Assembly (NCBI GenBank): GCA_016744795.1
Contig: JADGDR010000004.1
Location: 1 to 64,000, forward strand
Direction: 5' to 3'
Origin: Sulfurospirillum sp.
GTDB taxonomy: Bacteria > Campylobacterota > Campylobacteria > Campylobacterales > Sulfurospirillaceae
Length of the DNA: 64,000 nucleotides
The position numbers were made by a program, and so were the translations under genes. Shown here in pieces: positions 5,312 through 62,560 of this stretch; within the stretch, counting starts at the first letter, position 1, and the number at the start of each line of letters is the position of its first letter. Below the pieces are notes generated by a model. That model had not been told where the DNA came from, ran no database searches, and saw only the letters and a list, made by a program, of their open reading frames with translations.

Positions 5312-5330
5312 ACGACCGTAAGGTTATGCT

Positions 5331-5390
5331 TTCTCGAAGAGAGTGAAAGGAATTTTTAAGGGATGTGTTCCTTGAAAAGGAAAATTAAAT
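5331..5390 (+). promoter_or_regulatory. structured leader element, copy A, upstream of soxX
   Basis: This intergenic stretch matches 58027-58096 closely over its 3' part (AGTGAAAGGAATTTTT, then TTCCTTGAAAAGGA). It has a 5' hairpin TTCTC-GAA-GAGAG at 5331-5343. The central TTCCTT (5368-5373) can pair with AAGGAA upstream (5347-5352) or AAGGAA immediately downstream (5377-5382), two mutually exclusive hairpins. The soxX ATG follows 19 bases later with its own AAAGGAG site. Repetition plus compensating changes in the 5' hairpin make an RNA element likely; ligand and function are unknown. Confidence 0.6.
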
Positions 5391-5409
5391 AAGTGGTAAA
5401 GGAGAAAAT

Positions 5410-49457: not shown

Positions 49458-51863
49458 ATGAAAGTTTCAAGAAGGTCGTTTCTTAAGGGTACATCGTTGG
49501 GTTTAGGTGGAATAGCACTTGCTCCATTAAGTGTAAATGCAACTTCTAATGTATTACTTGCTCAAACAAAAAGAATTCCTCATGCAAATCATTATGGGCC
49601 ATTTTTTGCATATGTGAAAGACAATAAGATATTTGATATTGTTCCAAGAAGTGATTTGGACAAGAAACCTCTTGTAATGCTTCAAGGACTGACTGACCGT
49701 GTTGAAACAAGAAGTAGGATAAAATATCCATATGTTAGAAAAAGTTATTTGGAAGGAAAAGATGCTAAATCTCTTCGTGGACGTGAAGAATTTGTCCGTG
49801 TAAGTTGGAAAGAGGCACTAGATTTGATACATAAAAAAATAGATACAATTAGAAAAGAAGATGGAAATAAAGCTCTATACAATGCAAGTTACGGTGGTTG
49901 GGCACATCCTGGTAAATTAGGTAAAGTAAATACACTTGCAGGTCGTTTTTTCAATACCATTGGTGGTGCAGTTAAAACTTCAGGTGATTACTCAACAGGC
50001 TCTTCAACACCTGTGCTTCCTTCTATTATGGGAAATATTGAAGTATATTCAAAACAAACTACTCATGAACAAATCGTTGCAAATACAAAAGTTATGATTC
50101 TTTGGGGAAGTGATTTATACAAAACAAACCGCATAGGTTATATGGTTCCAAATCATAAAAATGAAGAGTGGTATGAAAAGTATAAAAAAGCTGGAATTAA
50201 ATTTATCAGTATTGACCCTATCAATACGCAAAGTGCTCAAAAATTTGGAGCACAATGGATAAAAATAAGACCAGGAAGTGATCTTGCATTTATGCTTGGT
50301 ATTATGAACTACCTATACAAAAACAAGTTATATAATAGTGATTTTATTGAAAAGTATACTGTTGGATTTGATAAATTTTTACCTTATTTATTGGGTGAAA
50401 CTGATGGTATTGATAAAACTCCTGAGTGGGCTGAAAAAAAGACTGATGTACCTGCGTCAGTAATGAAAGAATTAGCTAAAGTTATGGTTGAAAACAGAAC
50501 TCTCATTTCAGGAAACTGGGCAATTCAAAGAGCAGATAATGGTGATCAGATGCATTGGATGATGATTGTTCTTGCTTCTATGGTTGGTCAAATTGGACTC
50601 TCCGGAGGAGGTTTCGGTTTTGCAATGCATTGGGCTGGTGCTGGTCAAGCAAACTCTATGCAAAGAAGTGTTGGTGGACTTAGCATGGGTGGTGGAGACA
50701 AGGTGAGAATATCAATTCCAGCATCAAGAATGAGTGATTTAATACTGAAACCTGGACAGAGCATTACTTTTAAGGGCAATAAATTAACATATCCAAAAGT
50801 AAAATTAATGTACGTGGCTGGTTGTTCACCTATTGGGCATCAACCAAATACTAATGAGATACTTAAAGCCTTTAGAACACTTGAAACATTGGTTGTTCAA
50901 GAGCCTTGGTGGACACCAACAGCAAAAATGGCAGATATTGTTTTGCCTGTTACAACTACCCTTGAAAGAGATGACATAACAGCCGGACAGTTTTATTCTC
51001 AAGATAAAATATTTGCAATGCAAAAAGTTGTTGATAATGCCTATGAAGCAAAAGATGATTTTTGGATTTTTGAACAACTTGCAGAAAGATTTGATAAAAA
51101 GAGTAAATTTACTGGTAAAAAGACACAAATGCAATGGATTAAAAGTCTATATGCTAAAACAGATGCTGCAAAAAAAATGAAAATTTCATTTGAAGACTTT
51201 TGGTCTAAAGGTGTTGTTGAATATAAAATACCTGAAGCTGCTAAGAAGTATGTACGTCACCAAGCATTTAGAAATGACCCTGTGAAAAATAAGTTAAAAA
51301 CACCTAGTGGAAAAATTGAGATTTTTTCTAAAAAATTTAAAGACCTTGGTTATGTTGGATACCCAACTTGGATGGAACCAAAAGAGTGGTTAGGTTCAAA
51401 AGAGGTTAGTAAATATCCTTTCCATATGGTATCACCTCACCCAGCATATCGTTTACATACGCAAATGGATAATACTTGGGTTGCAAATGCTTTTAAAGTA
51501 AATGGTAGAGAACCAGTTAGTATAAATACTATGGATGCAAAAAAATTGGGCATTAGTGATGGTGATGTTGTAGAAGTTTACAATGCAAGAGGTAAACTAT
51601 TGGCAGGTGCTGTTGTTACGGATGAAATTCGTTCAGGAGTATTAGCCATATGTGAAGGAGCTTGGTATTGTCCTCAAAATGCAAATGATGAAAATTCAAT
51701 ATGTGTTAGTGGGCATGTAAATGTACTTTCACCTTCACGTGCTTCATCTTCATATGCACATGCGGCTGCAACAAATTCAATGTTAGTAGGAATCAAAAAA
51801 GCAGAAGGGATTATACCTCCAAATAGAGCTTATGAGTCTCCACTGGTTATAAATAAGGTATAA
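49458..51863 (+). CDS. TorA-like molybdopterin reductase (TMAO/DMSO/sulfoxide reductase family)
   Basis: An 801-residue periplasmic molybdo-enzyme of the DMSO-reductase family. Tat signal SRRSFLKG at residues 4-11. Ser179 in GDYSTGSS is placed like the molybdenum Ser ligand. No N-terminal Fe-S Cys cluster is seen, as in TorA, DorA and BisC. WGSDLYKTNRIG, GLSGGGFGFAMHW and SPHPAYRLHTQMDN are also TorA-like. It reduces TMAO or other N- or S-oxides. A cytochrome c gene follows at once, as in the Campylobacter Cj0264/Cj0265-type pair. No torD-like chaperone is nearby. Confidence 0.88.
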   Translation: MKVSRRSFLKGTSLGLGGIALAPLSVNATSNVLLAQTKRIPHANHYGPFFAYVKDNKIFDIVPRSDLDKKPLVMLQGLTDRVETRSRIKYPYVRKSYLEGKDAKSLRGREEFVRVSWKEALDLIHKKIDTIRKEDGNKALYNASYGGWAHPGKLGKVNTLAGRFFNTIGGAVKTSGDYSTGSSTPVLPSIMGNIEVYSKQTTHEQIVANTKVMILWGSDLYKTNRIGYMVPNHKNEEWYEKYKKAGIKFISIDPINTQSAQKFGAQWIKIRPGSDLAFMLGIMNYLYKNKLYNSDFIEKYTVGFDKFLPYLLGETDGIDKTPEWAEKKTDVPASVMKELAKVMVENRTLISGNWAIQRADNGDQMHWMMIVLASMVGQIGLSGGGFGFAMHWAGAGQANSMQRSVGGLSMGGGDKVRISIPASRMSDLILKPGQSITFKGNKLTYPKVKLMYVAGCSPIGHQPNTNEILKAFRTLETLVVQEPWWTPTAKMADIVLPVTTTLERDDITAGQFYSQDKIFAMQKVVDNAYEAKDDFWIFEQLAERFDKKSKFTGKKTQMQWIKSLYAKTDAAKKMKISFEDFWSKGVVEYKIPEAAKKYVRHQAFRNDPVKNKLKTPSGKIEIFSKKFKDLGYVGYPTWMEPKEWLGSKEVSKYPFHMVSPHPAYRLHTQMDNTWVANAFKVNGREPVSINTMDAKKLGISDGDVVEVYNARGKLLAGAVVTDEIRSGVLAICEGAWYCPQNANDENSICVSGHVNVLSPSRASSSYAHAAATNSMLVGIKKAEGIIPPNRAYESPLVINKV

Positions 51864-51864
51864 A

Positions 51865-52365
51865 ATGAAAAAAATGGTAGTTATTCTATTTATCAGTTGC
51901 AAATTAATATTTGCAGCTGATTTTGGATATGTTTTAAAAAATGTGGATAATGCAGATATTTTGTTATATAAAGGCAGTAAAATTGAAGTTGTGGATTCTT
52001 CAAAAGTTATGTTAAAAGCCTTTGTTAATTCAAAGAATGAATTTTTCTTTGACAAAAATTTTGTTTTTAAAATTGGAAAATTAAAGAATAATTCTTTAGT
52101 AAATAAAACTAATGAATATATTTTTAAATTAGAAAAAGATAAATTTAGTAAAGACCCTCTTGAATCTTGGGAAGAATATGAAGAGTTATACTATGAAGCA
52201 TGTACACAGTGTCACTCTGCACATGAACCAGTCGAGCATACTATGCTGGAATGGGAAGGATTATATAGTTCTATGGCAGAACAAAGTCAATTAGATAAGG
52301 AAATTGGCGAGAAAGTCCTAAGATATTTAAAAAGCCATGCAAAAAATGGATTTGTTACTCCTTAG
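51865..52365 (+). CDS. monoheme cytochrome c, TorC C-terminal-domain-like partner
   Basis: A 166-residue exported protein with one heme motif CTQCHSAHEP at residues 113-117. The C-terminal part (HTMLEWEGLYSSMAEQ then VLRYLKSHAKN) resembles the fifth-heme domain of TorC. The N-terminal about 90 residues are not recognised. It probably donates electrons to the TorA-like enzyme, starting one base after its stop. The classical NapC/NirT part of TorC is absent, so its own electron donor must be another protein. Confidence 0.8.
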   Translation: MKKMVVILFISCKLIFAADFGYVLKNVDNADILLYKGSKIEVVDSSKVMLKAFVNSKNEFFFDKNFVFKIGKLKNNSLVNKTNEYIFKLEKDKFSKDPLESWEEYEELYYEACTQCHSAHEPVEHTMLEWEGLYSSMAEQSQLDKEIGEKVLRYLKSHAKNGFVTP

Positions 52366-52390
52366 TAACAAATCCACTTCTTTTTTCATA
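52348..52390 (+). terminator. terminator overlapping the end of the cytochrome gene
   Basis: GGATTTGTTAC (52348-52358) pairs with GTAACAAATCC (52365-52375) around a six-base loop, followed by ACTTCTTTTTTC. The left arm and loop encode the last residues and stop codon. Confidence 0.85.
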
Positions 52391-52448
52391 TACATATAAT
52401 CTTCTTTTTTAACAACAAATGTTAGAATCAATAAAAATTGGAGATAAA

Positions 52449-52733
52449 ATGACAATCACAAAACAAGTAACATTTATAGCTAAAGAAAATGACATAGAGA
52501 AAATGAAAGAGCTTTTAACAGCGATGGCAGAGGCTTCAAAATCAGAAGATGGTTGTTTATTTTATCATATATGCCAATTAAAAGAAGAACCTAAAAAGTT
52601 TATAGTTCTTGAATCATGGAGAGATGAAGCAGCACTCGATGGTCATAAACTCTCAGCTCATTACGCTTATTATAAATCAAATTTTGAGCCATATTGTGAG
52701 CAGAAATTTTCTGATGGTTTAGAAGTATTATGA
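52449..52733 (+). CDS. antibiotic-biosynthesis-monooxygenase (ABM) domain protein
   Basis: A 94-residue ferredoxin-like fold: KQVTFIAKENDIEKMKELL, SEDGCLFYHICQLKEEPKKFIVLESWRDEAALDGHKLSAHYAYY. The ABM family includes YgiN (quinol monooxygenase) and LsrG (AI-2 phosphate isomerase). Neither function can be chosen; the LsrK-like gene in the same region makes LsrG-like activity worth testing. ATG 52449 is chosen over 52419 because GGAGAT lies directly upstream. It overlaps the aldolase start (ATGA). Confidence 0.75.
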   Translation: MTITKQVTFIAKENDIEKMKELLTAMAEASKSEDGCLFYHICQLKEEPKKFIVLESWRDEAALDGHKLSAHYAYYKSNFEPYCEQKFSDGLEVL

Positions 52734-53890
52734 AAAACTTATGGAACGATATAAATCTTAGAGTATTTACATCTAACTTACTTGGGCAGAGTGATGAGCT
52801 TGTTCTTCATGGCGGTGGAAATACTTCTGTTAAAAGTATGGTTAATGGTGAAGAGATTTTATTTGTAAAAGGGAGTGGCTGGGATTTAGTTTCTATCAAA
52901 GCCGAAGGTTTTGCCCCTGTAAAGATGAAAACTCTTTTAGAGATGGCAAGTCTAAAAACCCTAAGTGATACCGATATGGTAAGTGGACAAAAAGCTGCAA
53001 TGATCGACAAGAGCGCACCAAATCCTTCGGTTGAAGCCATACTTCATGCACTCATACCTTTTAAGTTTGTTGACCATACTCACGCAGATGCGGTGGTGAG
53101 TATATCTAATTCAAAAGATGGAATTGAGCTTATAAAAAAAGTCTATCCTGCTTTTCTTATAGTTCCTTATGTGATGCCTGGGTTTATTTTGGCTAAGACT
53201 ATATATGAAATGACACAAAATTTTGATTGGTCAAAATGCAAAGGAATTATCCTTCATAATCACGGTATATTTACCTTTGATAATGATGCTAAAAAATCAT
53301 ATGACAAGATGATAGAAGCAGTAAGCACGGCGGAAGAGTTTTTAAAAACTAATGCAGCAGTAGATATGAAAACTTTACATGTAAATAAACAAATAGATAT
53401 AAATGAGTTAAAACAACTCATACAAAAAGCAAAAGGGCATGAAATATGTTTACATGTAAACCAAACTCCACTTGCTTTATACTATAGTTCACAAGATAAT
53501 CTCTCAGAATTTGCCACTCGTGGTGTTTTAACTCCAGAGCACATTATAAGAACAAAAAGAGTTCCTTTGATAGTTGAAAATGAGAGTTTAGAACAATCAA
53601 TAGAAAATTTTAAAATAGAGTATAAAAACTACTTTGATGAGTTTAGTAAAGATGAAATCTGTTTGAATACTGCCCCAAATTATGCTGTTATAAAAGATTT
53701 TGGTATAGTGACTTTTGGTAAAAATGAAAAAGAAGCGAATATATTAAATGATATAGTAGAACACACAATGTTAGCTATTCTCAAAGCAGATCAGCTTGGA
53801 GGTTATCAAGGAATTAGCTTGAAAGACTGTTTTGAGATGGAGTACTGGGAGCTTGAACAGGCAAAAGTAAAAAAGTGTCACAATATTTGA
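52730..53890 (+). CDS. class II aldolase/adducin-like protein without the usual dehydrogenase partner domain
   Basis: A 386-residue protein like the N-terminal aldolase half of the bifunctional rhamnulose-1-phosphate aldolase/dehydrogenase proteins: HGGGNTSVK, FVKGSGWDL, PSVEAILHALIP (catalytic Glu), VDHTHADAVV and LHNHGIFTF (zinc His). The dehydrogenase half is missing; the last 130 residues are a separate part with IRTKRVPLI. It probably acts on a sugar phosphate; the substrate is unknown. Confidence 0.75.
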   Translation: MKNLWNDINLRVFTSNLLGQSDELVLHGGGNTSVKSMVNGEEILFVKGSGWDLVSIKAEGFAPVKMKTLLEMASLKTLSDTDMVSGQKAAMIDKSAPNPSVEAILHALIPFKFVDHTHADAVVSISNSKDGIELIKKVYPAFLIVPYVMPGFILAKTIYEMTQNFDWSKCKGIILHNHGIFTFDNDAKKSYDKMIEAVSTAEEFLKTNAAVDMKTLHVNKQIDINELKQLIQKAKGHEICLHVNQTPLALYYSSQDNLSEFATRGVLTPEHIIRTKRVPLIVENESLEQSIENFKIEYKNYFDEFSKDEICLNTAPNYAVIKDFGIVTFGKNEKEANILNDIVEHTMLAILKADQLGGYQGISLKDCFEMEYWELEQAKVKKCHNI

Positions 53891-53929: not shown

Positions 53930-54730
53930 ATGAAATTTAAACGTGTAAAAATGGTGTATTTTTCGCCAACAAAAACAACTCAAAAAGTGCTAGAAAGTAT
54001 TGCTAATGGAATTGATGTTGAAGAAGTTGTTCATTTTGATTTGACATATCCAAAAAATATTGAGCAAACCATAGCACCCTTTTTAGATGAAATTGTTATT
54101 ATTGGAGCACCTGTGTATGCTGGTCGCTTACCTGTTGTGGCAGTTGAGCGTTTTAAGCAATTAAGAGCAAATAATACTCTGGCTATTATCGTTGTTGTAT
54201 ATGGAAATAGAGGATTTGATGATGCTTTATTAGAGTTAAAAAATCTTGTGATTGAATTAGGATTTATTCCAATCGCAGGTGCTGCTTTTGTAGGAGAACA
54301 CTCATTTTCAACACATGATACTCCTGTTGCACAAGGAAGACCAGATAGTTTAGATATTCAAGATACAATGGAATTTGCTCAAAAAATTAATGATAAAATC
54401 AAAACTTTGTTAACTTTTAAAATCCAAAACAATTTAGAAATTTCTGGTAATTTTCCATATAAAGATGAAATGCCACCTAATAAAGTTACTCCAGTAGTAA
54501 ACGAAAAGCTTTGTAATGAATGTGGTATGTGTATTGATGTTTGTCCAACAGGAGCTATCTCTTTTGAAGAAGGTATCATAACTAAAACGGAGTTATGTAT
54601 TCGCTGTTGTGCTTGTGTTAAGAGCTGTCCTAATGAAGCAAGAGTGGTTGAAAATAGTGCGTGGAAAGCAATAAGTCATACATTAAATGCAAATTGTAAC
54701 ATACGAAAAGAGCCAGAACTTTTTCTATAA
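53930..54730 (+). CDS. EFR1-type flavodoxin-ferredoxin protein
   Basis: A 266-residue protein: an N-terminal flavodoxin-like domain (residues 5-155, FSPTKTTQKVLESIANG as the FMN phosphate loop, then GAPVYAGRLPVVAVERF) and a C-terminal ferredoxin domain with two [4Fe-4S] motifs, CNECGMCIDVCP and CIRCCACVKSCP (the second has CxxCxxC with an added Cys). These proteins are electron carriers of unknown pathway in anaerobes and microaerophiles. It has an AAGG ribosome-binding site. Confidence 0.85.
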   Translation: MKFKRVKMVYFSPTKTTQKVLESIANGIDVEEVVHFDLTYPKNIEQTIAPFLDEIVIIGAPVYAGRLPVVAVERFKQLRANNTLAIIVVVYGNRGFDDALLELKNLVIELGFIPIAGAAFVGEHSFSTHDTPVAQGRPDSLDIQDTMEFAQKINDKIKTLLTFKIQNNLEISGNFPYKDEMPPNKVTPVVNEKLCNECGMCIDVCPTGAISFEEGIITKTELCIRCCACVKSCPNEARVVENSAWKAISHTLNANCNIRKEPELFL

Positions 54731-54740
54731 AGTAACATAT

Positions 54741-54764
54741 AACATCTTTACATGTAAAGATGTT
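54741..54764. terminator. palindromic terminator between converging genes, built on TACATGTA
   Basis: A perfect 24-bp palindrome without a spacer, reading AACATCTTTACA then its complement. It lies between the EFR1 gene and the minus-strand DUF1499 gene. The plus strand continues TTATTTATTG. The central TACATGTA suggests that the repeat element has been used as a terminator. Confidence 0.6.
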
Positions 54765-54767
54765 TAT

Positions 54768-55211
54768 TTATTGTTTAAATCTACTTCTTATTTCTTCAAT
54801 TCTTTTTCTGTTTACTCCAAAATCTGAGTGTCCTAGTCTTGAAGCTGAGCGCATATGTATGGTTGTTGTGTTTGATTTAGTATCTGGGAAATAAAATTCT
54901 ACATCATCAACAAAACCAAATAGTTTTGATGAAAACTCGGTTCTTATATAATTGTCTTTTGTTTCTATAATTTTTGCATTATTTAATTTACCTAATATTT
55001 TCAATAGAGATTCTTTTACATGTAACTGTGAGTTTTGAGTTTTTATAGGCTCTATAAAATGTTCTTTATTTTTTGCTTGAGTACTCACACAATTGGGCGT
55101 TGATGGGCATAGTGTTAGTTTTAAATCTTCTATTCCCAATTTTGGTTTTGTACCTGAACATCCTAATAGAAATATTGAGAGTATTGAGATGATATAAATA
55201 TTTTTATTGAT
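54768..55211 (-). CDS. DUF1499 lipoprotein with an apparent ATC start codon
   Basis: About 147 residues. The body has LCPSTPNCVSTQA, EFYFPDTKSNTTTIHMRSASRLGHSDFG and VNRKRIEEIRSRF, typical of DUF1499. A TTG at 55139 would give only 123 residues and would discard, in frame, a full lipoprotein signal (NKNIYIISILSIFLLGCSG) that has AAAGGA six bases before ATC at 55211-55209. Therefore the gene probably starts with this non-standard codon, or carries a mutated ATG. Confidence 0.65.
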   Translation of the reverse strand: MNKNIYIISILSIFLLGCSGTKPKLGIEDLKLTLCPSTPNCVSTQAKNKEHFIEPIKTQNSQLHVKESLLKILGKLNNAKIIETKDNYIRTEFSSKLFGFVDDVEFYFPDTKSNTTTIHMRSASRLGHSDFGVNRKRIEEIRSRFKQ

Positions 55212-55283
55212 TGTTTTTCCTTTATTTAGACGATAAACATTTATAGTTAGAGTTTGATTTCTAATTTGTTATTTTGTTAATAG

Positions 55284-55688
55284 TTAAATAACGTCTGTGT
55301 AAATAAAATCAGAAAACTTTAGTTGTGTTTTTTCATTTAAATCTTTTCGCATAGCTAATACAATAGTTCCAATAACCTTTCTCCCCTGTTGTGCATCAGG
55401 AGTATTTCCTTTGGAGTCTATTACTAATTTTACCATTTCATTTATTGCTTTTATAACTTCATCTGAACTATATATCCAAGATTTATACTGTTCTTCAAAA
55501 AACTTACGTTTTGTTTCAGAAGTTGATGTTGAACCAACAAATCCTTGTAACAAAACAAGTAAATTTGCATACTTCTCTTCTTTATATTTTAAGATAGATT
55601 CTTCACGTTTTGTACGATTAGCAAAAAGGTAAGTTAAATAAGAACCAATTATTGCAGTTAAAATTGGTAATATTGCATTCGTTTCCAA
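55284..55688 (-). CDS. membrane-anchored protein of unknown function
   Basis: A 134-residue protein. One N-terminal membrane segment (residues about 5-24, ILPILTAIIGSYLTYLFANR) is followed by a soluble, helical and charged domain with KRKFFEEQYKSWIYSS and KVIGTIVLAMRKDLNEK. I know no matching family. The start is TTG with AAAGGA six bases upstream. It lies between a lipoprotein gene and a toxin-antitoxin pair, all minus strand, so a recent mixed insertion is possible. Confidence 0.55.
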   Translation of the reverse strand: METNAILPILTAIIGSYLTYLFANRTKREESILKYKEEKYANLLVLLQGFVGSTSTSETKRKFFEEQYKSWIYSSDEVIKAINEMVKLVIDSKGNTPDAQQGRKVIGTIVLAMRKDLNEKTQLKFSDFIYTDVI

Positions 55689-55746
55689 ACATATTCCTTT
55701 GCTACTTATTAATGAACATTATAACACAATAAATTCTTATTTAAGT

Positions 55747-56076
55747 TCATTTATTTTTAATCAATCTTTGAAATAATACATCTTCCAAATTACGACTAGA
55801 ATCTACTACCAACAATATATATACTTTTTTATTATCAATTTTATATATTATTCTCCATCTTTTGTGGATTATTTCTCTGTATTTTAAAATACCGATTTGC
55901 TGTAACTCTGGTACTATTCTTTTTCTTTGAGGTGAACAGTATAGCTCATCGCACTCTTTTTTGATTTCAAAAAATATTTTTTTAGCCGTAGTTAAACTAT
56001 CGGTTTTAATATACTCTATGATTGACTCTAAATCAAATTGGGCACTTTTTGTCCATATAACTTCAAATTGCTTCAT
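55747..56076 (-). CDS. RelE/ParE-family toxin
   Basis: A 109-residue toxin: EVIWTKSAQFDLESIIEYI at the N-terminus, then PELQQIGILKYREIIHKRWRIIYKIDNKKVYILLVVDSSRNLEDVL. The Tyr-Arg-rich strand pattern is typical of the family. Members cleave ribosome-bound mRNA (RelE) or poison gyrase (ParE); which applies is unclear. It lies eight bases downstream of its antitoxin gene. Confidence 0.88.
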   Translation of the reverse strand: MKQFEVIWTKSAQFDLESIIEYIKTDSLTTAKKIFFEIKKECDELYCSPQRKRIVPELQQIGILKYREIIHKRWRIIYKIDNKKVYILLVVDSSRNLEDVLFQRLIKNK

Positions 56077-56084
56077 TATATTTC

Positions 56085-56354
56085 TTAAAATAACTTCTGT
56101 TCTAATTGCTTGAACATATCTTCTTGTTCAATAGTATGATTGTTTTCAATATCATTTTCACTTTGGACAATTAATTTTAATAGATTTAAAGAATTTTGGA
56201 GATTTTCATAGCTTTTTATATCTTGAACAACTGCTTTAGCTTCGCCATTTTGTGTTATGATTACAGCTCTTTGATTTTCATTTACATTGTTTATTACATC
56301 AGCTGTTTTAGCTTTTAGGTAACTAATAGGTTTTATATCTTGGCTTAAATTCAT
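56085..56354 (-). CDS. Phd/YefM-family antitoxin
   Basis: An 89-residue antitoxin: IKPISYLKAKTADVINNVNENQRAVIITQNGEAKAVVQDIKSYENLQ gives the DNA-binding Phd/YefM fold, and the acidic C-terminal tail neutralises the toxin. It is upstream of the RelE/ParE gene, the normal order, and is expected to repress the pair. Confidence 0.88.
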   Translation of the reverse strand: MNLSQDIKPISYLKAKTADVINNVNENQRAVIITQNGEAKAVVQDIKSYENLQNSLNLLKLIVQSENDIENNHTIEQEDMFKQLEQKLF

Positions 56355-56456: not shown

Positions 56457-58010
56457 ATGAAATACTTGATGGCAATAGATGCAGGAACAGGAAGTGTGCG
56501 AGCGGTTGTTTTTGATACCTTGGGTAATCAGATAAGCGTAGGACAACGAGAGTGGACACATTTAGAAGAAAAAGATATTCCAAACTCTATGAGCTTTGAC
56601 TGTGAAACTAACTGGGCTTTGGTTTGTGAGTGCATCAAAGAGTCTTTACACGTAGCTAATCTTAAAGGTGAAGATATTGTGGCTTTGAGTGCAACTAGTA
56701 TGCGTGAGGGCATTGTACTTTATGATGAGTTTGGCTTGGAGCTTTGGGCGGTTGCCAATGTAGATGCTAGAGCCGATAAAGAGGTTAGGTACCTTAAAGA
56801 TAATGTTAAAGGTATTGAAGAGGAGTTTTATGAACTCTCTGGTCAGACATTTGCTCTTGGGGCTTTGCCTCGTATTTTGTGGCTTAAAAACAATAAGCCA
56901 GAAGTTTATGAAAATGTAGCAAAAATCGCCATGATAGGTGATTGGATTTTGGCACGTTTGAGTGGAGTGATAGCGACTGACCCAAGCAATGGCGGGACTA
57001 CCGGAATATTTTCTTTGAAAAACCGTGATTGGGTTCCTTTGATGGCTAAAAAAATAGGCATCAAAGATGACATTTTTCCACATACTTTAGAAGTCGGAAC
57101 TCTTATGGGGAGCGTTACATGTAAAGAGTCTGGTCTTAGTGAAAACACAAAAGTAGTTATGGGTGGTGGTGATGTTCAGCTTGGATCTGCTGGACTTGGT
57201 GTGGTCGAAGAGGGGCAAGTAGCAATTCTTGGCGGTTCTTTTTGGCAACAAGTGGTAAACATAGCAAGTGAAACTCTACCTCCAAAAAACATGGGCATAC
57301 GAGTAAACCCTCATGTGATTGACGGACTTTCTCAAGCAGAAGGGATCACTTTTTTTAGTGGTCTTGTGATGAGATGGTTTAGAGATGCTTTTTGTGATTT
57401 GGAAAAACTTGAAGCAAAAAAACGAAACATAGATGTTTATACGCTATTAGAAGAAAAAGCAAAAGATGTACCAGTGGGTGCTTACGGAATCATACCTATT
57501 TTTTCAGATAGCATGAAATATGGTAAATGGTATCATGCAAGTCCAAGTTTTTTAAATTTTTCGCTTGACTCATCTACATGTAATAAGTATTCTATGTTCA
57601 AATCTCTTCAAGAAAATGCGTGCATAGTCTCTGCAATAAATCTAAAAAAGATAGAAGAGTTCACTAATATGAAGTTTGGTGAAATTGTTTTTGCAGGAGG
57701 TGCAAGTAAGGGTGAACTTTGGAGTCAGACTCTCTCAGATGTGACAGGCTGCGTTATAAGAATTCCAAAAGTTACAGAAGCAACAGCTCTTGGAGCGAGC
57801 ATGGCGGCTGGGGTTGGAGTAGGGATTTATAAGGACTTAAAAACAGCTGCAAAAGAGTTGGTAGTATGGAATAAAACCTATGAACCAAATATGAAAAATC
57901 ATAAATTATATAATGAAATACAGTTAAATTGGCAAAAAGCTTATGAAATACAGCTAAAATTAGTAGATGAAAATATAACTCAATCAATGTGGAAGGCACC
58001 AGGATTGTAA
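56457..58010 (+). CDS. lsrK: LsrK-like autoinducer-2 kinase
   Basis: A 517-residue FGGY kinase that follows E. coli LsrK over its whole length: YLMAIDAGTGSVRAVVFD, ATSMREGIVLYDEFG, NVDARADKEV, DPSNGGTTGIFSL, VVMGGGDVQLGSAGLG (catalytic Asp239), GGSFWQQVVNIAS, RVNPHVIDGL, FSGLVMRWFRDAF, FSDSMKYGKWYHASPSF and the end SMWKAPGL. It would phosphorylate AI-2 (DPD). No LsrACDB importer, LsrR or LsrF is in this window. Two TACATGTA octamers suggest long residence. A cupin gene and structured leader follow. Confidence 0.9.
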   Translation: MKYLMAIDAGTGSVRAVVFDTLGNQISVGQREWTHLEEKDIPNSMSFDCETNWALVCECIKESLHVANLKGEDIVALSATSMREGIVLYDEFGLELWAVANVDARADKEVRYLKDNVKGIEEEFYELSGQTFALGALPRILWLKNNKPEVYENVAKIAMIGDWILARLSGVIATDPSNGGTTGIFSLKNRDWVPLMAKKIGIKDDIFPHTLEVGTLMGSVTCKESGLSENTKVVMGGGDVQLGSAGLGVVEEGQVAILGGSFWQQVVNIASETLPPKNMGIRVNPHVIDGLSQAEGITFFSGLVMRWFRDAFCDLEKLEAKKRNIDVYTLLEEKAKDVPVGAYGIIPIFSDSMKYGKWYHASPSFLNFSLDSSTCNKYSMFKSLQENACIVSAINLKKIEEFTNMKFGEIVFAGGASKGELWSQTLSDVTGCVIRIPKVTEATALGASMAAGVGVGIYKDLKTAAKELVVWNKTYEPNMKNHKLYNEIQLNWQKAYEIQLKLVDENITQSMWKAPGL

Positions 58011-58026
58011 AAACTAAAAGTTTTTC

Positions 58027-58096
58027 TTGCTAAAAGCAAAGCTTCAGTGAGAGGAATTTTTTAGGAATTTACTTCCTTGAAAAGGAGAAATTAAAT
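58027..58096 (+). promoter_or_regulatory. structured leader element, copy B, between lsrK and the cupin gene
   Basis: Matches copy A at 5331-5390. The 5' hairpin is TTGCT-AAA-AGCAA (58027-58039), sharing shape but not sequence with copy A. TTCCTT (58073-58078) can pair with upstream AGGAA (58052-58056) or with AAGGAG (58082-58087), which is the ribosome-binding site of the cupin gene. The element runs directly to the ATG at 58095, so a translational on/off switch is easy to draw. Confidence 0.65.
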
Positions 58097-58469
58097 GAAA
58101 TTAACAAACGAGAGCGACCATGAATACAGATATAAAACACATGGACCAAAGTATTTAACAAAAGGACCCAAAGTAGATATGGGAGTTGTTGTGATAGGCG
58201 TAGGAGAAGAGCATCCATGTCACAAGCATGAGCGCCAAGAAGAGTCATTTTTGGTTCTTGAGGGACAATGTGCAGTTTACTTAGATGGAGAACGCATAGT
58301 TATAAAAGAGGGAGATTATCTTCAATGTGATTTAGGTGAAGCTCATATGTTTATCAATGAGTTTGATAAGCCTTTTAAATCAGTATTTATCAAAGCCCCT
58401 CATTTAGAAAAAAAGGATTCTGTCTATATAGATTGGAAACCTGGAGAAGTATTTGATAAAAATTGTTGA
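58095..58469 (+). CDS. small cupin, probable partner of the AI-2 kinase
   Basis: A 124-residue single-domain cupin. Metal motif 1 is HPCHKHERQEESFLVLEG, motif 2 is YLQCDLGEAHMFIN, giving a likely His-His-Glu-His metal site. Cupins include sugar isomerases and dioxygenases. It is the only gene after lsrK and its start is embedded in the structured leader, so a shared role in AI-2 or DPD-phosphate processing is an inference. Confidence 0.8.
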   Translation: MKLTNESDHEYRYKTHGPKYLTKGPKVDMGVVVIGVGEEHPCHKHERQEESFLVLEGQCAVYLDGERIVIKEGDYLQCDLGEAHMFINEFDKPFKSVFIKAPHLEKKDSVYIDWKPGEVFDKNC

Positions 58470-59168: not shown

Positions 59169-60287
59169 ATGAGTGCGAGCATCAATATTTTTACCACTAA
59201 TAACACTATAACCTTTACATGTAAAGGTTCATGGACACTCGAATATGTTACACAACTTTCAAGAAAGCTAACTTCTACATGTAAAGATAAAAATGTTGTT
59301 TTTGATTTAACTTCACTTAGTGATTTTGATACACATGGTATACTTCTTATCATTGAAACTATTAAAAAATTACAATTACAAAACTGTCAAATTAAAAAAG
59401 TAGGAGAGAGTGAAAAATTCATCTCTTTGTATGAAGTTTGTTTGAGTAATTTTCCAAAAGAGATTAAGCATCCTGATAAACATGGAACAATTGGGCAGTT
59501 TTTTTATACATTTGGGAAAAATATAGTTGAGTCAAAAAGAACATTAATAAACTTTTTTTCTTTTGTTGGAGGACTTACTGAAGCTGTTGGTAAACTTACG
59601 ATTAACCCAAGCCAAATTAGATTTAAAGCTATGTTTTATCATCTTGAAAACAGTGGACTCAAAGCACTCCCAATTATATTGCTTACCTCTTTTCTTATTG
59701 GGGTTGTTATAGCTTTTCAAGGAGCAGTGCAATTAGAAAAGTTTGGAGCCAATATTTTTATAGTAGAGATGGTTAGTATTTCAGTTACGAGGGAACTCGC
59801 CCCTCTTCTTACTGCTATTGTAATTGCAGGGCGTAGTGCCTCAGCTTATACGGCGGAAATAGGCGTAATGAAGATAACTGAAGAGATAGATGCTATGAAG
59901 ACTATGGGTTTTTCAGTATGGAATTTTTTGATAATTCCTAGAGTTTTTGCTCTTATGATTTCACTTCCTTTAGTTGTCTTTTTTGCAGATATTGTTTCTA
60001 TTTTTGGAGGCATGGTTGTTGCCTCACTTCAACTTGGGATTAGTTTTGAAGAGTTTGCAAATCGAATGCAAGAGAGTGTTGAGATAAAACACGTCATCAT
60101 AGGACTGGTAAAAGCACCTATTTTTGGATGGATTATTGCCGTAATTGGTTGTTTTAGGGGTTTTCAAATAAGTAGCAGTACTGAAAGCGTTGGTAAATAT
60201 ACAACTATAAGCGTAGTTAATGCCATTTTTTGGGTTATTGCAATGGATGCTATAGTATCTGTATTTTTGACGGAGTTGGGATTATGA
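59169..60287 (+). CDS. STAS-MlaE fusion permease of an MCE lipid transporter
   Basis: A 372-residue protein: residues 1-100 are a STAS-like domain (CKDKNVVFDLTSLSDFDTHGILLIIETI) as in MlaB; residues 120-372 are the MlaE permease with five hydrophobic segments and the VSISVTRELAPLLTAIVIAGRSASA loop. It forms an inner-membrane ABC complex moving phospholipids between the membranes. The fused MlaB-like domain replaces a separate mlaB gene. It overlaps the ATPase gene by four bases. Confidence 0.92.
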   Translation: MSASINIFTTNNTITFTCKGSWTLEYVTQLSRKLTSTCKDKNVVFDLTSLSDFDTHGILLIIETIKKLQLQNCQIKKVGESEKFISLYEVCLSNFPKEIKHPDKHGTIGQFFYTFGKNIVESKRTLINFFSFVGGLTEAVGKLTINPSQIRFKAMFYHLENSGLKALPIILLTSFLIGVVIAFQGAVQLEKFGANIFIVEMVSISVTRELAPLLTAIVIAGRSASAYTAEIGVMKITEEIDAMKTMGFSVWNFLIIPRVFALMISLPLVVFFADIVSIFGGMVVASLQLGISFEEFANRMQESVEIKHVIIGLVKAPIFGWIIAVIGCFRGFQISSSTESVGKYTTISVVNAIFWVIAMDAIVSVFLTELGL

Positions 60288-61018
60288 GTAGTGTTATAGT
60301 TGCTAAAAACATAGTGACCAGGTTTGGTTCAAATATAGTTCATGATGGATTAAGTTTTGAAATAAAAAAAGGTGAAATTTTTGGTTTGCTTGGGGGCAGT
60401 GGTAGCGGAAAAACCACCCTTCTTAGAGAGATGATACTTCTACAAAAATATAGTTCAGGCTCTTTAAAAGTTCTTGATATTGATGTAAAAAAACTAAAAG
60501 ACAAAAAAGCTAATGAACTTCGGAGTAGATGGGGAGTTTTGTTTCAGTTTGGAGCACTTTTTAGCTCTTTAAGTGTGTTAGAAAATATTTCAATTGCTTT
60601 AAAAGAGTATACAAATCTATCTAATAGTGCTATTGAAAAAGCAGCACTTATGAAGTTAAAAATGGTAGGACTTCCTCAAAGTGCGGCTCATTTGTATCCG
60701 AGTGAGCTTAGTGGTGGTATGAAAAAACGTGCAGGTCTTGCAAGAGCGTTGATTCGTGATCCCAAGCTTCTTTTTTTAGATGAGCCTACGAGTGGGTTGG
60801 ATCCCAAGAGTGCAAGAGATTTTGATGAGCTTATAGTGGCACTTCGTGATGCATTAGGAATAACTGTTATAATGGTAACTCATGATAAAGATACTATTAG
60901 CTCAGTCCTAGATAGATTTGTCATTTTAGGTAACAAAAAGATACAATTTTTAGGTGATATAGAAGAGTTAAGAACTAGTGATAATGAGAACTTAAAGGAA
61001 TTTACTAATGGAAAATAG
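60284..61018 (+). CDS. MlaF-type ABC ATPase
   Basis: A 244-residue ABC ATPase: Walker A GLLGGSGSGKTTLLREM, signature ELSGGMKKRAGLARAL, Walker B LLFLDEPTSGLDP, H-loop VTHDKD. LFQFGALFSSLSVLENI is the MlaF-type Q-loop region. ATG 60284 (ATGA overlap) is used; the frame is open to 60230. It powers the MlaE permease. Confidence 0.93.
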   Translation: MSSVIVAKNIVTRFGSNIVHDGLSFEIKKGEIFGLLGGSGSGKTTLLREMILLQKYSSGSLKVLDIDVKKLKDKKANELRSRWGVLFQFGALFSSLSVLENISIALKEYTNLSNSAIEKAALMKLKMVGLPQSAAHLYPSELSGGMKKRAGLARALIRDPKLLFLDEPTSGLDPKSARDFDELIVALRDALGITVIMVTHDKDTISSVLDRFVILGNKKIQFLGDIEELRTSDNENLKEFTNGK

Positions 61019-61979
61019 GGTTAGTTATATACTAATTGGGCTTTTTGTATTTGTACTTGGTTTTTCTATTGTGGGATTTATCCTTTGGTTAGGTAAATAT
61101 GCACACAATGAAGACTATAACTATTACAAAGTAGTTACTACTTTGAGTGTTTCAGGGCTTAATCCAAAAGCACCAGTTAAATTAAGAGGGGTAAGTGTAG
61201 GTGAAGTAAAAGATATCTACATAAACCGTGAAAACTCAGAAGAAGTTGTAGCACTTATAAAAGTAAAAGAAGGCACTCCCATAAAAGAAGATACGCATGC
61301 ACTTATAAATCTTCAAGGTATTACAGGACTTAGTTATATAGAACTTGAAGGTGGCACACATGATTCTACTTTATTAAAAACTGGCTATCTTAGTAAAGAC
61401 TATGGAATCATTAAAACTCAAGACTCTATCATAGGAAGAGTTGATAAGACGTTAACAACAATAGGAAATAAAACTAAAAAAATATTAGATAAAACAAGTA
61501 AGGTAATGAGTCAAAAAAATTTAGATAACTTTGAGAAGATATTAGCAAATCTTGTAGAAGTAACAAAGTCTATGAATAAAACTTTAGAGATGATTCATTC
61601 AAAAGATAAGCAAATAGATAAAGTACTCAATAGAGCACATGAATTTGAAGTTGCAGTTATTCAATCAGCTGATGAAGTTAAAAAAATGGCAGCAAATCTA
61701 GGTAAATCTGGACATGAAACACTTGTTAGTATGCAAGAAGCTTCTGCAACAACGTCAAGAGTTATGGGCGCACTTGATGACAAGCTAAATGAGGGAGCAT
61801 TGGATATAGATGTGATTGTAAGAGAAAATTTACTTCCTTTTCAGAACGATTTAAATGATTTAAGAACACTTATAGTAGAAACAAAAGAGTTTGTGGGAGA
61901 GCTTCGAGATAGTCCTAGTGATATCTTTTTTAAAGAGACAAATTTAGAGATGGCACCTTCTGAGGAGAGAGAAAAATGA
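61008..61979 (+). CDS. MlaD-type MCE-domain protein
   Basis: A 323-residue protein with one N-terminal membrane helix (residues about 8-28) and one MCE domain (about 38-118, VSGLNPKAPVKLRGVSVGEV and LINLQGITGLSYIEL). The remaining 200 residues are helical. It binds lipids in the periplasm as a ring on top of MlaE. It overlaps both neighbours by a few bases. Confidence 0.92.
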   Translation: MENRVSYILIGLFVFVLGFSIVGFILWLGKYAHNEDYNYYKVVTTLSVSGLNPKAPVKLRGVSVGEVKDIYINRENSEEVVALIKVKEGTPIKEDTHALINLQGITGLSYIELEGGTHDSTLLKTGYLSKDYGIIKTQDSIIGRVDKTLTTIGNKTKKILDKTSKVMSQKNLDNFEKILANLVEVTKSMNKTLEMIHSKDKQIDKVLNRAHEFEVAVIQSADEVKKMAANLGKSGHETLVSMQEASATTSRVMGALDDKLNEGALDIDVIVRENLLPFQNDLNDLRTLIVETKEFVGELRDSPSDIFFKETNLEMAPSEEREK

Positions 61980-62560
61980 GATATATTGTTTTAATAACTG
62001 TACTATTGTTTACAGGGTGTAGTATGAAAAATATAGAAAAAAGACCGCAGAATTACCGTCTTGAACCACAACATAGTTTACATGTAAAGAAACATCAAGA
62101 TGATAGAGTCCTAAGAGTTCAAAGAGTAGAGGGCGATAGTGCTGTTATGACTCGCTCTATTTTATACAAAAAAGATGGTGCGTTAAAACCGTACAAATAC
62201 GGTAGATGGAGTGAACTTCCAGCAACAAGACTTCAAGAGATTTTCACTGAAGCCATAGAATCACAAAAAATATTTAAAGCAACAGTCAATAGCCGTTCGT
62301 TTGCCTTAGCCGATTTGATTTTAGAGAGTAGCTTAGAAAACTTTGAGGAGCTCTATAGCGTCCAGAGTTCGAGTGTACATGTAAAGATACGTTTTAGGCT
62401 TATTCAAAGAAAAAGAGGAAAGGTGCTAGATACTATTTTAATTGATGTTATTAAGCCAGTAAAGCAAAAAGGTGCAAGTGGAGTTGTTCTAGCATTCAAT
62501 AGTGCTGTTGAAGAGCTAGTAGCAAAATTAGGTGAGTGGTTAGATGAACAATCAAAATAG
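61976..62560 (+). CDS. PqiC-like auxiliary lipoprotein of the MCE transporter
   Basis: A 194-residue lipoprotein with LLFTGC lipobox (Cys at residue 15). The body resembles the ABC-type transport auxiliary (PqiC/DUF330) family: YRLEP, VLRVQRVEGDSAV, WSELPATRLQEIFTEAIESQKIF and VAKLGEWLDEQ. It probably connects the MCE protein to the outer membrane. It starts with ATGA overlap to MlaD and overlaps the next gene by 17 bases. Confidence 0.8.
   Translation: MRYIVLITVLLFTGCSMKNIEKRPQNYRLEPQHSLHVKKHQDDRVLRVQRVEGDSAVMTRSILYKKDGALKPYKYGRWSELPATRLQEIFTEAIESQKIFKATVNSRSFALADLILESSLENFEELYSVQSSSVHVKIRFRLIQRKRGKVLDTILIDVIKPVKQKGASGVVLAFNSAVEELVAKLGEWLDEQSK

Follow-up and report, generated by a model that had tools for sequence, protein, structure and literature searches.

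LuxS is widespread, and it has long been disputed whether AI-2 acts as a signal or arises as a by-product of the activated methyl cycle. To our knowledge, most bacteria with LuxS lack an Lsr system. In the enteric route LsrK generates phospho-DPD, LsrG converts it to 3-hydroxy-2,4-pentanedione-5-phosphate, and LsrF moves the acetyl group to CoA, leaving DHAP; the annotation of E. coli was consistent with these enzyme names. The window analysed here is a stretch of 64,000 nucleotides from a Sulfurospirillum-like bacterium (contig C22 of a genome of 30 contigs and 2.68 Mb, rated 100% complete). It contains an lsrK gene outside of a typical lsr operon, and this raises the question of how phospho-DPD would be processed in such a cell. 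The features of the locus are summarized in Table 1.

Table 1. Features of the lsrK locus, with positions in the window.
Feature	Positions	Strand	Basis
Terminator-like hairpin 5′ of the ABM-aldolase pair	52347..52376	+	Pattern scan; number found about equal to chance expectation
ABM-fold protein, LsrG-like candidate phospho-DPD isomerase	52449..52733	+	Pfam ABM, NF007791, AF2/Foldseek
Class II (metal-dependent) DHAP-type aldolase, candidate LsrF replacement	52730..53890	+	Pfam Aldolase_II, conserved residues, Foldseek
Genes splitting the module: EFR1-type flavodoxin/ferredoxin, DUF1499, small ORF, Phd/ParE-like toxin-antitoxin pair (named by eye)	53930..56354	.	ORFs and families
lsrK, autoinducer-2 (DPD) kinase	56457..58010	+	NF008187 score, PDB 5ya0, E. 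coli LsrK identity, pocket residues
Two-hairpin intergenic element ending in AAAAGGAGA ribosome-binding site	58009..58097	+	Covariance model
Small metal-binding-type cupin, accessory in a minority of lsrK loci	58095..58469	+	Pfam Cupin_2

The kinase had been described in a first-pass annotation as a full-length LsrK-like protein with the C-terminal end SMWKAPGL, and this was confirmed. The translated open reading frame has 517 residues and ends in TQSMWKAPGL. Its score with the NCBIfam model for autoinducer-2 kinases (NF008187) was 846.1 bits over residues 1-517 of 517, compared with an equivalog cut-off of 528 bits, and the remaining FGGY kinase families scored far lower. The protein was 54% identical to E. 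coli LsrK from end to end (519 columns), and the latter was also the top solved relative (PDB 5ya0, E 1e-187). Among the residues that have been proposed to form the substrate and ATP pocket of the E. coli enzyme (PMC10056567, PMC8028047), T21, W43, W277, F312, G315, R319, W320, R322, Y341, K431, and W435 were identical in both proteins. The majority of the proposed pocket residues was retained in nearly all of 114 relatives, which were 51-58% identical to E. coli LsrK, and T21, W43, F312, and W320 were kept across the whole set. The identity of the window protein as LsrK is thus well supported, with a predicted role in the phosphorylation of DPD.

The view that this kinase is an orphan was ruled out, because an ABM gene and a class II aldolase gene are situated 2.6-4 kb upstream of lsrK, and in the close relative L004 the ABM, aldolase, lsrK, and cupin genes form an unbroken series. 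The genes that make up the insert of about 2.5 kb in the window are absent from L004. The aldolase gene overlaps the end of the ABM gene, the mechanical open reading frame of which begins at 52419, by 4 bases. The 80 nearest lsrK loci, one genome per species, were surveyed, and nearly all of them are labelled Campylobacterota (Sulfurospirillum, Sulfurimonas, Sulfurovum, Arcobacter), the nearest named loci belonging to Sulfurospirillum. An ABM gene was found near lsrK and on the same strand in 53 of the 80 loci, and the same number was obtained for the class II aldolase. The typical order is ABM-aldolase-lsrK, with the genes overlapping or only a few bases apart. When only loci with 5 kb or more of sequence on each side were considered (42 loci), the ABM gene was present in 35 and the aldolase gene in 33; 30 loci had both genes, and 38 had one or both.

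Several further features of the surroundings were observed. A Phd/ParE-like toxin-antitoxin pair adjoins lsrK both in the window (55747-56354) and in an S. arcachonense-type locus (L003:198-796), and the two pairs are 47-49% identical and have opposite orientations relative to lsrK. Directly upstream of the ABM gene (49458-52365), a TorA-like molybdopterin reductase gene is followed by a gene for a small protein that resembles the C-terminus of TorC. Downstream of the cupin gene (59169-62560) lies a run of genes for a permease, an ATPase, an MCE protein, and a lipoprotein, similar to those of Mla-type phospholipid ABC transporters.

The three genes are also linked across genomes. One related family was represented by 130 genomes, all at least 90% complete, of which 103 contained lsrK, 105 the aldolase gene, and 99 the ABM gene. 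The distributions of lsrK and the aldolase agreed in 126 genomes (102 with both and 24 with neither; one had only lsrK and three only the aldolase), and the same total was found for lsrK and ABM (99 with both and 27 with neither; four had only lsrK and none only ABM). The Fisher values of 8e-22 for lsrK/aldolase and 5e-24 for lsrK/ABM are overstated, because genomes of one family are not independent. In genera such as g11, g38, and g46, members with the full set occur side by side with members that have none of it, and therefore joint gain or loss of the whole set seems to have occurred more than once. In a sample of 160 genomes from the phylum, lsrK was present in 11, and all 11 also contained luxS, which is weak evidence because luxS occurred in 130 of the 160.

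ABM proteins form a large family, and the window protein is a member of it (Pfam ABM, 52 bits). The LsrG isomerase family NF007791 was the sole NCBIfam family that was matched by all 42 ABM relatives, in each case below the cut-off; the window protein reached 27.9 bits compared with the required 135, and membership in the LsrG equivalog is therefore not claimed. An AF2 model was obtained with a pLDDT of 97. In a Foldseek comparison, PA3566 ranked first and E. coli LsrG (3qmq) second, with a TM score of 0.93 and an rmsd of 1.4, so that the model has the LsrG fold, which further ABM proteins match about equally well. By sequence and by fold alike, PA3566 or a similar PDB entry is closer than LsrG. 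The ABM protein is likely to be the isomerase of phospho-DPD.

The aldolase has 386 residues and matches the N-terminal part of the PRK08324 group with 436 bits (NCBIfam); the dehydrogenase half of that group is absent, and the score is under every curated NCBIfam cut-off. H27-GGGNTS, K47-GSG, E102, H116-x-H118, and H178 were invariant across 55 relatives. The residues of a class II DHAP aldolase are therefore in place, i.e. H116, H118, and H178 for the metal, E102 for catalysis, and G28-N31 together with S49 for the phosphate, which we take from knowledge of the family to be equivalent to those of FucA. The AF2 model had a pLDDT of 83, although the prediction was poor for residues 5-30 and 48-60, and matched class II aldolases in Foldseek, among them 3m4r, FucA, and DrdA (6btd/6btg). 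A tree of 92 aldolases resolved three groups, namely short forms linked to luxS, short forms linked to lsrK/ABM, and long aldolase/short-chain dehydrogenase (SDR) forms; the placement of a few long branches was unsure. Each group has members that adjoin lsrK or ABM. It is plausible that the enzyme cleaves the isomerized product of phospho-DPD in place of LsrF. We know of no class II aldolase that cleaves a beta-diketone phosphate. The first-pass annotation had suggested the ABM protein and the aldolase as analogues of LsrG and LsrF, and this proposal gained strong support from neighbourhood, co-occurrence, and fold, while both roles are predicted ones.

Components of the enteric system that were reported missing from the window, i.e. 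LsrACDB, LsrR, and LsrF, were also searched for in the whole genome. No LsrF-type class I TIM-barrel protein (PF01791) was found in the host genome at E 0.1, while 14 of 14 control genomes were positive, and no LsrR-type protein (PF04198) was found in the entire 2.68 Mb. A recognizable LsrACDB importer was likewise absent. The genome encodes one LuxS and one clear Peripla_BP_4 protein (PF13407), which lies beside an ABC transporter. The latter protein is not LsrB-like; its PDB matches were generic sugar-binding proteins, and with E. coli LsrB it shared only a BLAST match of 142 residues with 27% identity. The sugar ABC cluster on contig C29 was rejected as an AI-2 importer because it lacked support.

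A link to the source of DPD was found in relatives. luxS adjoins the aldolase-ABM-lsrK set in 15 loci, which belong to four genera (g38, g45, g47, g48). In genus g38 (L088) luxS, aldolase-ABM, and lsrK are neighbours, the pair being on the opposite strand from luxS and lsrK. The aldolases and ABM proteins of the luxS-linked loci are about 50% identical to those of the window and their gene order is reversed, and therefore these loci carry the same set in a different arrangement. The locus L111 (6856-7494) carries two ABM genes, one beside lsrK with a product 66% identical to that of the window and one beside the aldolase and luxS with 51%, an arrangement that looks like the meeting of two module versions. 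Further neighbours of lsrK are metK, mqnE, mtnK, and mtnA, which are all SAM-linked. metK was found near lsrK in 21 of the 80 loci, as a rule directly 3′, and mqnE-like genes in 33, both names having been assigned by eye from the sequence and without a curated search.

We infer the substrates, the order of the steps, and the products as follows. LuxS would release DPD inside the cell, and LsrK would phosphorylate DPD at the primary alcohol. The ABM protein would act like LsrG and shift the carbonyl group to yield 3-hydroxy-2,4-pentanedione-5-phosphate. The class II aldolase would then substitute for the CoA-dependent class I enzyme LsrF and split the carbon-carbon bond adjoining the DHAP part, with DHAP held as a metal enediolate. 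Water or another nucleophile would take the acetyl end, so that the two-carbon end would leave as acetate or an equivalent. DrdA is a 5-deoxyribulose-1-phosphate aldolase that forms DHAP and acetaldehyde via a metal-bound enediolate (PMC6079011). The intermediate 3-hydroxy-2,4-pentanedione-5-phosphate, i.e. 4-keto-5-deoxypentulose-1-phosphate, is the 4-keto form of the DrdA substrate, and therefore a class II aldolase could cleave it via the same DHAP enediolate. Neither an importer nor a repressor would be required, because DPD would be made inside the cell.

Taken together, gene identities, linkage, co-occurrence, predicted folds, and active-site residues were observed that define a real and conserved, LsrF-less candidate AI-2 processing module in Campylobacterota. 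We read it as a module for the intracellular salvage of DPD via LsrK, ABM protein, and class II aldolase, a counterpart of the 5-deoxyribose DHAP shunt, and assign a probability of about 0.6 to this reading. The results suggest that a marine Sulfurospirillum-like bacterium and many free-living relatives use a previously undescribed route to recycle the AI-2 precursor that they make themselves. Whether free-living Campylobacterota in general degrade their own LuxS-made DPD by such a further DHAP shunt, with an ABM-fold isomerase following LsrK and a class II aldolase performing the cleavage of LsrF, and whether AI-2 chemistry thus means carbon salvage and detoxification instead of Lsr-type signalling, is in our estimate a matter of even odds.

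Alternatively, the aldolase could function in the DHAP shunt that is already known for 5-deoxyribose and methylthioribose; in that case LsrK and ABM would only make and isomerize phospho-DPD, which would be disposed of otherwise, and the genes would cluster because all of them deal with SAM by-products. The order ABM-lsrK-metK-mtnK-mtnA-aldolase/SDR-mqnE, or close variants of it, in several Sulfurimonas-type loci (L115-L117, L119, L122) is in line with this explanation, as is the presence of mtnK-mtnA-aldolase/SDR away from lsrK in L124, L126-L129, and L132. The long aldolase/SDR form is frequently linked to mtnK-mtnA and not to lsrK, and it may therefore serve methylthioribose and 5-deoxyribose. 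However, the window genome has its own cluster of mtnK-mtnA and a separate class II aldolase of 202 residues (G000:C26:46196-49076, L086:4197-7077), which probably represents the methylthioribose/5-deoxyribose DHAP shunt or an MtnB-type salvage, and thus the lsrK-linked aldolase is a second enzyme. In this genome no MtnK/DrdK kinase and MtnA/DrdI isomerase were linked to the aldolase on the lsrK side. In addition, the short lsrK-linked and luxS-linked aldolases usually have no mtnK or mtnA nearby, and the aldolase family is missing from 24 of the 27 genomes without lsrK. This alternative is therefore regarded as doubtful. The clustering of metK, mtnK, mtnA, aldolase/SDR, and mqnE with lsrK-ABM in L115, L116, L117, L119, and L122 was also noted as a possible hub for the salvage of SAM by-products.

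The cupin could be an enzyme that works alongside LsrK, either as phospho-DPD isomerase or in another handling of DPD, e.g. ring opening. It has 124 residues, matches Pfam Cupin_2 with 60 bits, and has no NCBIfam equivalog. In the window 84 bases separate it from lsrK. The proposed kinase-cupin pairing held insofar as a cupin gene does directly follow lsrK in Sulfurospirillum/Arcobacter-type loci, but it is confined to a minority (8 of the 80 loci, plus L109, L112, and the Arcobacter-like genome G122). In the phylum sample the cupin occurred in only two genomes, both with lsrK and in both directly after it. The luxS-linked locus L112 encodes, between ABM and lsrK, a cupin that shares 67% identity with that of the window; this locus holds both genes, and hence the cupin is not simply a substitute for ABM. 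As most lsrK loci lack the cupin while ABM is nearly universal, an enzymatic role in this step is unlikely. The cupin is an accessory, and its association with lsrK is real but limited.

The intergenic element between lsrK and the cupin gene had been described as a structured leader; it does recur, but it is not specific for AI-2 genes. The window copy matched the covariance model with 91.9 bits, being itself one of the training rows, and its fold by itself is modest (z -2.1). Sequence and hairpins recur 5′ of the cupin gene in L002, L005, and L050, with conservation despite changing hairpins. Elements that are about 85 bases long, in which a GCTTYAGTGAGAGGAATT core is conserved and a ribosome-binding site is present, were found inside operons before unrelated genes: 5′ of lsrK in L058 (224-313), in tandem 5′ of aroC in L004 (13121-13217, minus strand), and 5′ of an oxidoreductase gene in L002 (21117-21206). 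The leader is therefore regarded as a dispersed intergenic element, and an AI-2-specific riboswitch was rejected, also because Rfam contained no match. A weak additional match is located at 5312-5391 of the window.

In enterics phospho-AI-2 is the inducer that is bound by LsrR (PMC2728841). By analogy, the module could be a signalling device, in which phospho-DPD is an internal signal with a level set by kinase and ABM protein and sensed by the cupin, the gene of which lies 3′ of lsrK in some genomes, or by another protein. Against this speak the lack of an LsrR-type protein and of a convincing LsrB in the host genome, the absence of a recurring adjacent regulator gene from the 80 lsrK loci, and the rarity of the cupin, in which Pfam recognized no DNA-binding domain, so that signalling is quite improbable. 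FGGY kinases readily change specificity and we know of no kinase assay for the phylum, but an LsrK paralogue that naturally acts on another substrate, e.g. a deoxypentulose, is very improbable in view of the far exceeded NF008187 cut-off, the residues kept in all 114 relatives and their identity to E. coli LsrK, and the luxS adjacency in four genera.

Intracellular salvage of DPD thus remains the preferred reading. In a full-text search of open-licence papers, lsrK and lsrG were named together with a class II aldolase only in the LsrF structure paper, and an earlier description elsewhere is possible. An importer-less, compact set of kinase, isomerase, and aldolase, which is present in roughly four fifths of the genomes sampled from one family and physically joined to luxS in some genera, makes the question of signal versus by-product testable in non-pathogenic marine bacteria. 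The module predicts an unrecorded enzyme reaction, i.e. the action of a class II aldolase on a phospho-diketone, and it offers a rule for the annotation of lsrK, ABM, and aldolase genes that would otherwise have no explanation.

Several known systems can be compared with the module. It shares with the enteric lsr operon (LsrK, LsrG, LsrF, LsrACDB, LsrR; E. coli, L114) the kinase family, with 54% identity, an ABM partner that resembles LsrG, and the presumed substrate DPD. In contrast to that operon, it has a class II metal aldolase instead of the LsrF-type class I enzyme, it lacks LsrR and a recognizable LsrACDB, and its relatives are linked to luxS, metK, or mqnE. The plasmid-borne lsrK of Sinorhizobium meliloti encodes a kinase about 54% identical to that of the window. 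The bifunctional aldolase/short-chain dehydrogenase (RhaD-ADH-like, PRK08324), long forms of which occur in related genomes with lsrK, matches the window aldolase with its N-terminal part, but the latter is devoid of the dehydrogenase half. The DHAP shunt for 5-deoxyribose salvage, encoded by drdK-drdI-drdA or mtnK-mtnA-ald2 (PMC6079011), has the same chemical order of kinase, isomerase, and class II aldolase, also starts from a SAM by-product, and yields DHAP, which is likewise expected here. It differs in that its kinase is MtnK and not the FGGY kinase LsrK, its isomerase is MtnA/DrdI and not an ABM-fold protein, and the presumed substrate of the window module is DPD; the second carbon product would have a different oxidation state.
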